Source: Alteromonas sp. LMIT006 (GTDB lineage Bacteria > Pseudomonadota > Gammaproteobacteria > Enterobacterales > Alteromonadaceae). Taken from it: 64,000 nt of DNA. The translations under genes were made by a program, and so were the position numbers. The stretch covers positions 1,798,001 through 1,862,000 of the forward strand of contig NZ_CP101291.1 in NCBI RefSeq assembly GCF_024300645.1, in the 5' to 3' direction. The notes under the pieces were generated by a model. It ran no database searches. It saw only the letters and a list, made by a program, of their open reading frames with translations, and was not told where the DNA came from. This document shows positions 13,337-14,338 of this stretch, piece after piece (within the stretch, counting starts at the first letter, position 1; each line of letters opens with the position of its first letter).

Positions 13337-13358
13337 GCTATTTTTCGCTTACATTGAT

Positions 13359-13404
13359 GCGTTTTCCAGTAGCGTTTATGGATACTTTGATACCTGTAAA
13401 ACGC
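13359..13404 (+). terminator. Hairpin after the VWA gene, possible weak terminator
   Basis: Inverted repeat GCGTTTTCCAG / CTGTAAAACGC (10 of 11 pair) with a 24-base loop, 22 bp after the VWA stop codon. No T run follows, so termination is doubtful. The rest of the AT-rich gap 13405-13560 shows no clear promoter for the downstream peptide gene. Confidence 0.35.
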
Positions 13405-13576
13405 TCTACTCTTAAATAAAATCTAATACATTCAATTGCATGTGAAAACTGTACTGTTTAGTTTTTTATACATGTTGTATTTTTGCTCCTGAGTTACCTG
13501 TTTTCATTCTTTGCTAAGTACATCGTTAAATGGGTGACTCTTTTTGTCTATTAAACAGTAAACTTTGGAGATAATT

Positions 13577-13843
13577 ATGATTCAAATCTCACTAGAACAA
13601 TCTCGGAATGTTGTTGGTGGTTCAAATCCTGGAACAAGACGGAGAAATGCTAGAGGGTCTATAGGCAATGATCCTATTTCAAACACTACAGCTATGAATA
13701 TAGGTGCTGGGCTGGGTGCATTTGGTACGATTATTGGTGTTATCCCAACTCCAATTACCTTTGGGATCGGCAGAGTACTGCAAATTGCGGGGGCAGCCGT
13801 TACAGCAGGTGCGTTAGGCGATGGGCTAAAAGATAGTCAGTAA
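13577..13843 (+). CDS. Candidate double-glycine-leader bacteriocin/microcin precursor
   Basis: 88 residues from the ATG at 13577, chosen because GGAG sits 6 bases upstream; the longer frame from a TTG at 13565 lacks this. Residues 1-15 (MIQISLEQSRNVVGG) resemble leaders cut by C39-type ABC exporters: Ile at -12, Ser at -11, Val at -4, Gly-Gly at -2/-1, but Ser instead of a hydrophobic residue at -7. The mature 73 residues would start with a cationic segment containing an RRR run. They then have a Gly/Ala-rich hydrophobic stretch (residues ~45-83) with small-residue spacing (GAGLGAFG, GIGRVLQIAGAAV), typical of pore-forming class II bacteriocins. Family not recognised; no exporter is nearby. 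Confidence 0.55.
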   Translation: MIQISLEQSRNVVGGSNPGTRRRNARGSIGNDPISNTTAMNIGAGLGAFGTIIGVIPTPITFGIGRVLQIAGAAVTAGALGDGLKDSQ

Positions 13844-13849
13844 TTTATG

Positions 13850-13886
13850 TCACTCTGTGTCTACACTTAGTAGAGTGAGGCACTCT
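13850..13886 (+). other. Alternating hairpin elements between the peptide gene and its partner
   Basis: CACTCT (13851-13856), AGAGTG (13872-13877) and CACTCT (13881-13886) follow one another. The middle element can pair with either neighbour, giving two mutually exclusive hairpins, the second followed by TTAATTT. This could tune expression of the downstream gene, or be chance in a short AT-rich gap. Confidence 0.3.
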
Positions 13887-13908
13887 TAATTTATAGAGGA
13901 ATTAAAGT

Positions 13909-14142
13909 ATGTATATTGCACTTACTGTTGTTGCTTACATATCAATTGCTTATGGCATTAGTTTAAATGAAACAATCATGGGTATAAACAATAATGTATT
14001 TAAACTTGTGCTACTGATAGTTGCGCCGATGGATGTGTATTTTAGAGTACAACGAGAAGTTAGAAATATTGAAGCTAAATATCAAGCGTCAAATCCGACA
14101 GAGCCACAGTACAACAAGGTAAAATCTCGTCATCATCAATAA
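13909..14142 (+). CDS. Small membrane protein, candidate immunity partner
   Basis: 77 residues with a clear AGAGGA ribosome site 8 bases before the ATG. Two hydrophobic segments (about 2-19 and 30-42) are followed by a charged, soluble tail (VQREVRNIEAKYQ). Its size, position 65 bp after the candidate bacteriocin gene and membrane character fit a bacteriocin immunity protein, but no family was recognised. The last ~22 codons run antisense into the 3' end of yfaE, so the present C-terminus may be a recent extension. If the upstream gene is not a bacteriocin, this is simply a hypothetical small membrane protein. Confidence 0.5.
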   Translation: MYIALTVVAYISIAYGISLNETIMGINNNVFKLVLLIVAPMDVYFRVQREVRNIEAKYQASNPTEPQYNKVKSRHHQ

Positions 14143-14338
14143 AAGCAAGGGGGTCAGTTGTGTAGTCGACCTCTCCAGAAATGATCTTACAACGACAGGC
14201 ACCACAAAATCCTTCTCGACAATGATATTCAATCGCGATGTTATGCGCTTCAAGGTCGTCTAGTAATGTGTCTTTAGAAGTAGAAAAGGCTGTGCCGTCA
14301 CGCAATGTCACAACACAACCTTTTGTCGAATTACTCAT
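14075..14338 (-). CDS. yfaE: Class I ribonucleotide reductase maintenance ferredoxin YfaE
   Basis: 87-residue plant-type [2Fe-2S] ferredoxin that helps assemble and maintain the diferric-tyrosyl cofactor of NrdB. Cluster cysteines are in HCREGFCGACRC (C-x4-C-x2-C) and the fourth in ILPCCTV. The length and the end shortly after DEILPCC match YfaE. It is the third gene of nrdA-nrdB-yfaE, 6 bp after nrdB. Its final 68 bp overlap the convergent small membrane protein gene. Confidence 0.9.
   Translation of the reverse strand: MSNSTKGCVVTLRDGTAFSTSKDTLLDDLEAHNIAIEYHCREGFCGACRCKIISGEVDYTTDPLAFIDDDEILPCCTVALSDLTLDI

Follow-up and report, generated by a model that had tools for sequence, protein, structure and literature searches.

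The window, a stretch of 64,000 nucleotides that sits in a single 2.53-Mb contig of Alteromonas sp. LMIT006, contains two small open reading frames, ORF1 and ORF2, within the spacer between a vWA (CoxE-like) gene and a ferredoxin gene that is yfaE by position (Table 1). An AAA (MoxR-like) gene and the vWA gene are located upstream of the pair, and two further downstream genes, on the other strand, are read as ribonucleotide reductase subunits. The G+C content of the spacer is 0.364, compared to 0.433 for the window. In accordance with the sequence-only reading that drew attention to this locus, ORF1 has a ribosome-site-like motif and a 15-residue leader ending VVGG, and a second small gene with two hydrophobic stretches, ORF2, begins 65 nt downstream behind a GAGGA motif. 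A terminator-like stem-loop lies between the two frames and could set the ratio of peptide to immunity protein.

Table 1. Features of the ORF1–ORF2 locus (window positions) and of the C39 exporter locus of the same genome (positions in stretch L002).
Feature	Position	Strand	Description
Spacer between vWA gene and yfaE	13337..14074	.	738 bases; contains the pair
GGAG of ORF1	13567..13570	+	Ribosome-site-like, from sequence
ORF1	13577-13843	+	88 aa; leader 15 residues MIQISLEQSRNVVGG
Double-glycine leader of ORF1	13577..13621	+	Ends VVGG
ORF1 mature part and stop	13622..13843	+	73 aa; cationic stretch, then two predicted helices
Terminator-like stem-loop	13872..13886	+	Between ORF1 and ORF2; 1 vs shuffle mean 0.3 (sd 0.5); consensus match only
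GAGGA of ORF2	13896..13900	+	Ribosome-site-like, from sequence
ORF2	13909-14142	+	77 aa, two hydrophobic stretches
ORF2 first 55 codons	13909..14073	+	Putative immunity protein; relation to exporter-locus ORF spans residues 3-49
ORF2 last 22 codons and stop	14074..14142	+	Antisense to yfaE end; no counterpart in relatives; low model confidence
2Fe-2S ferredoxin gene (yfaE by position)	14075-14338	-	Downstream of the pair
HlyD gene	L002 6790-8046		Own exporter locus
57-aa peptide	L002 8087-8260		Own exporter locus; 15-residue GG leader MKELTFEEVKEVNGG
Rce1-like/CPBP protein	L002 8328-9011		Own exporter locus
C39-ABC protein	L002 9055-11115		Own exporter locus

The mature part of ORF1 has a net charge of +3 and contains, besides the cationic stretch, a Gly/Ala-rich hydrophobic half. 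The G+C content at codon positions 1, 2, and 3 was, respectively, 0.55, 0.55, and 0.27 (a value without control). A single-sequence AlphaFold2 model of the precursor placed helices at residues 33-54 and 59-85, with a block of confidence 82-88 (residues 41-80) and a mean of 70.5, the remaining four models reaching 46-67; the leader was modeled with low confidence. A hydrophobic residue at -7 is a consensus position of GG leaders, not a defining one. The sequence-only reading had remarked on the lack of such a residue in ORF1, which carries Ser there, and L, I, V, M or F is likewise absent from 6 of the 39 distinct comparison leaders (counted by eye). In length and ending, the leader falls within the range of class II microcins, which is 15-18 residues ending GG or GA in the accessible text of PMC10233263.

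The leader was then scored against those of peptides at exporter loci of the family. An exporter relative was found at E ≤ 1e-80 in 156 of 295 family genomes, and 20 stretches of 17 genomes taken from the best exporter matches made up, together with the own locus, a set of 21 loci. From 18 of these, 39 GG peptides whose leaders have 15 residues (32 distinct leaders) were picked by eye; false matches inside exporter genes, other leader lengths and some further candidates were left out. With the 32-leader profile, the ORF1 start ranked first among the 4114 starts of the window, and 40 random sequences of 64 kb, with 143,723 starts between them, contained a single start that reached its score. 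A second, weighted profile of 39 leaders (seven more, from further unlinked GG-peptide loci) gave, with G required at -2, no start with the ORF1 score in 200 random windows. In a control set of 59 real loci, with 9978 starts in 184,324 bases, this score was reached only by the window's own copy, L007. These statistics, together with the codon-position composition, the ribosome site and the exporter-locus relative of ORF2 (see below), argue against ORF1 being a chance frame with an accidental GG, in which case ORF2 alone, or neither, would be a gene; such an explanation, in whose favor stands the lack of a convincing ORF1 relative in the searched collections, is very improbable. Leave-one-out scoring placed the ORF1 leader below 31 of 32 and 38 of 39 real leaders, which counts against a microcin cassette and marks ORF1 as divergent within its kind.

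Searches of 60 relatives, 395 family genomes and 375 order genomes (overlapping sets, the own genome among them) detected no convincing relative of ORF1, which counts against the cassette reading. For the same reason, an ORF1 orthologue without the downstream gene, named beforehand as a finding that would speak against a bacteriocin, was not encountered; ORF1 may yet have a conserved non-bacteriocin fold, another such finding. Weak matches were judged to be chance: three had 18.8-19.4 bits, and those in L004, L027, and L028 fell in a lengthy repetitive frame that belongs to a different gene or in frames with an internal stop. Among the exporter-locus frames, the best match was a GG peptide of the genus relative G002 (E 0.22). 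ORF1 had no match in Pfam, PHROG or PDB sequences and two far-sub-threshold matches in NCBIfam, both to models of pore-forming cytotoxins, the better of them with E 0.04 and 12.9 bits, compared to a cut-off of 320. Scans of species genomes, viral contigs, plasmids and phages confirmed no ORF1 relative, the first two of these reaching close relatives only.

Alternatively, no bacteriocin may be involved, and the pair could encode a secreted GG peptide with another function (in signaling, biofilm formation or autolysis, for example) together with its small membrane partner. GG-motif secreted proteins do serve biofilm formation in Synechococcus elongatus, according to the available part of PMC4997328, but the absence of relatives from the other genomes searched fits a conserved signal poorly, and the combination of a Gly/Ala-rich hydrophobic core with a small hydrophobic partner recurs in an unlinked peptide family of the genus and in 14 of 39 exporter-locus cassettes, defined by a hydrophobic small non-GG ORF within 400 nt downstream of the peptide (11 distinct ORFs, counted by eye and without control). 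We therefore consider this alternative improbable. Under this strict filter, which also asks for an ATG and a ribosome-site motif, the other 25 of the 39 exporter-locus peptides failed, which counts against reading the window pair as a microcin cassette.

The key connection between the pair and a peptide exporter came from ORF2. When ORF2 was compared with 6964 small frames from the 21 exporter loci, its best match was a frame in L072, an exporter locus of genome G273, which belongs to another genus (BLAST E 2e-7, phmmer E 2e-6, over the 6964 frames). This relative, of 61 aa from a hand-chosen ATG (L072:9699-9884, minus strand), has the C39 exporter on one side, and two GG peptides and another small ORF on the other; it is not immediately behind a GG peptide in G273, which counts against the cassette reading. 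Shuffling ORF2 as a whole (300 versions) or by segment (300 versions, of which 298 gave a match) yielded at best 26.9 bits, compared to 38.7 for the real sequence. A weaker match was located directly beside a second G273 exporter (BLAST E 0.007, phmmer 0.03), and all six invariant columns of the three-row alignment of ORF2 and these relatives are present in ORF2. We take this relation to an exporter-locus ORF as the key evidence for the pair, and it supports the bacteriocin-immunity module proposed by the sequence-only reading, for which the word candidate is kept. In the accessible portion of PMC9746304, the neighboring immunity proteins of class II microcins measure 51-216 aa and many contain transmembrane helices, a description that ORF2 fits in size and in its two hydrophobic stretches. 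In Acinetobacter, immunity is attributed to a cupin-like protein and not to a small membrane protein in the available part of PMC10333792, which counts against such a role for ORF2.

Further searches confirmed no additional relative of ORF2 among the matches inspected. A profile of the ORF2 alignment matched 80 of the 395 family genomes at E ≤ 0.1; its strong matches were the alignment rows themselves (own genome and G273 twice), which it finds by construction. Over the 375 order genomes, the own genome alone had a match at E ≤ 0.001. The next match after the rows, in G399 (E 1.2e-4), was set aside as a 109-aa ORF read as an MnhG-type antiporter subunit. Matches of ORF2 in G007 (L006) and in L012 were antisense of the yfaE end, and L069_6409 was antisense within or beside HlyD, judged from coordinates. 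Pfam, PHROG and plasmid searches with ORF2 gave no match and NCBIfam gave sub-threshold matches only; neither the species genomes nor the viral contigs yielded a confirmed ORF2 relative, and the 61-aa L072 relative had no match in the plasmid search.

ORF2 runs with its final 68 bases into the 3' end of yfaE, which is encoded on the other strand, a feature that goes beyond the sequence-only reading. The single-sequence model of ORF2, like that of ORF1 of modest confidence, was helical up to residue 61, followed by a low-confidence tail. Since codons 56 onward are yfaE antisense without counterpart in the relatives, the simplest reading is that the right edge of an insert would lie near codon 55 and that the frame ends by accident inside yfaE; ORF2 would have lost, or never had, a stop codon of its own. 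Comparison of the raw vWA-yfaE gap, with stop codons counted, gave 744 bases in the own genome and 71, 10, 5, 5, 107, 223, 248, and 910 in G007, G009, G008, G006, G005, G004, G001, and G002, respectively; the ninth genus relative, G003, has an incomplete locus with no vWA match and its gap was left out of the count. Because the gap is shorter in seven of the eight measurable relatives (the exception being G002), the pair appears to have been added in this species or lost in the other genus genomes compared, with insertion into the spacer as the more economical, though presumptive, direction. As to its presumed mechanism, no mobile-element gene, convincing flanking repeat or plasmid match was found at the spacer, and the spacer DNA gave nothing clear against the compared loci (best E 0.13) or elsewhere in the window, where the lowest E was 0.038. 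The G002 spacer (L010, 910 bases) contains an unrelated-looking ORF whose start resembles a signal peptide, read by eye, so this spacer may be a repeated insertion spot.

The divergence of the leader, its lack of a hydrophobic residue at -7 and the antisense tail of ORF2 could also mean that the cassette is decaying, i.e., that a former microcin-immunity pair has drifted since its insertion, with a leader too divergent for processing and an ORF2 extended by read-through. Another such peptide in the own genome is 30 residues short (59 vs 89 aa), as decay would have it. Both frames are nevertheless intact and have ribosome sites, third-position G+C is low in ORF1, and ORF2 keeps the six invariant alignment columns. 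Decay has a small but appreciable probability.

The sequence-only reading had noted the lack of a C39 exporter in the window and had advised a search for one, with HlyD, elsewhere in the genome. The absence of such an exporter from the genome, which that reading had named as a refutation, did not come about, since one full locus was found approximately 470 kb from ORF1, outside the window: Peptidase_C39 had a single match in the own genome (E ≤ 0.001, over the curated cut-off), in the exporter at G000:C1:1341054-1343111. Cys10, His83, and Asp99 of this protein have a spacing identical to that of the CvaB triad, given as Cys32, His105, and Asp121 in the accessible text of PMC9746304. OEP/TolC-type models had seven matches in the own genome, six of them over the cut-off, in three frames, and a C39 ABC exporter, a fusion protein and TolC-like proteins are thus all encoded. 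A C39 match was present in 10 of 10 genus genomes, own included, and the own exporter protein shares 97% identity with those of G007 and G009 but 91% with that of G002.

The window pair is not the only candidate located away from this exporter. When the 10 genus genomes were scanned with a 27-leader profile, 18 places reached E ≤ 10; those in the own genome were the exporter-linked peptide (E 4e-7) and loci at 627 kb (E 0.011) and 863 kb (E 0.52). ORF1 was absent at this threshold, which counts against the cassette reading. At 627 kb, a 59-aa peptide is followed by a 92-aa hydrophobic frame with an 8-nt overlap, and at 863 kb, a 71-aa peptide is followed by a 100-aa frame. The 627-kb peptide (L136, G000:C1:627020, minus strand) is a member of an 89-aa genus family (L131, L132, L135, L143), whose members in G009, G001, G006, and G002 lie on contigs other than those with the C39 match; in L136, about 30 middle residues are missing in frame. 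Both peptides have relatives at exporter loci in other genomes, the 627-kb peptide at L080, L079, and L071, where the E values of 5e-12 to 5e-6 include sizeable corrections for composition, and the 863-kb peptide at L083 (E 7e-8). By the relation of ORF2 and the leader statistics, and not by the 27-leader profile, the window pair would count as a third unlinked cassette.

The pair is probably an exporter-unlinked class II microcin-like cassette that uses the distant exporter, because leaders scoring as high are seldom met in control DNA, random or real, the sole C39 match sits with HlyD, CPBP and a GG peptide whose leader also has 15 residues, ORF2 is related to an ORF at the L072 exporter locus, and two more unlinked GG-peptide genes (627 and 863 kb) match exporter-locus peptides elsewhere. 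By analogy with the class II microcin model (C39 cut, export channel, inner-membrane immunity), as set out in the accessible parts of PMC9746304 and PMC10233263, ORF1 would be a precursor that the own exporter cuts after GG with its C39 domain, the secreted product would have 73 residues, and export would proceed through an ABC-HlyD-TolC-type channel. Since the AlphaFold2 model gives two helices in ORF1, the peptide might enter the inner membrane of related competitors as a helical hairpin, a guess from the model, and might kill them in this way. ORF2 would act as an inner-membrane immunity protein that protects the maker.

Like MccV and other class II microcins, so far as PMC9746304 and PMC10233263 could be consulted, the pair combines a 15-residue GG leader, a small core and a neighboring membrane protein of immunity size, and the own genome encodes a C39 ABC exporter, an HlyD-type fusion protein and TolC-like proteins. 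It differs in that the exporter lies ~470 kb off and that neither protein has a Pfam or PHROG match, with NCBIfam matches far sub-threshold only. With the GG peptides of the C39 loci of the family (L002, L069-L088) it shares leader length and pattern, the Gly/Ala-rich core found in many of them, and the ORF2 relative in L072, but the ORF1 core is not detectably related to theirs and the pair stands away from the exporter. The 89-aa genus family likewise pairs a GG peptide with a small hydrophobic protein unlinked to the exporter in the own genome, and in four other genomes it lies on a contig without C39 match; it is a separate peptide family, whose genes overlap by 8 nt instead of being 65 nt apart. 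The pair is thus best described as a divergent candidate of a known microcin-like kind.

The main interest for specialists lies in the layout of one exporter with several scattered cassettes. We put at even chances the wider proposal that one chromosomal C39 exporter serves scattered microcin-immunity cassettes (three unlinked and one linked), which would move as two-gene units between exporter loci and spacers. The layout makes a testable claim, namely one exporter for several peptides with variable leaders. As described in the available part of PMC9746304, one screen for Gram-negative GG peptides searched the surroundings of C39 transporters; the cinful pipeline seeks BLAST likeness to ten verified microcins. 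Cassettes like ORF1-ORF2 may be undercounted, because the pair is far from a C39 transporter and its core matched none of the family models to which the comparison extended. Among the titles and abstract openings of the literature consulted, none described unlinked cassettes of this kind.

Large genes were also seen beside the exporters. Directly after the own exporter and on the other strand, L002:11147-14540 contains two large membrane proteins read as histidine kinases, which are possible regulators. In two G273 loci, large genes with a GGSYGGY motif (L072:10896-12944 and L073:10153-12249), read by eye as prolyl-oligopeptidase-like, sit among the GG peptides beside the exporter.
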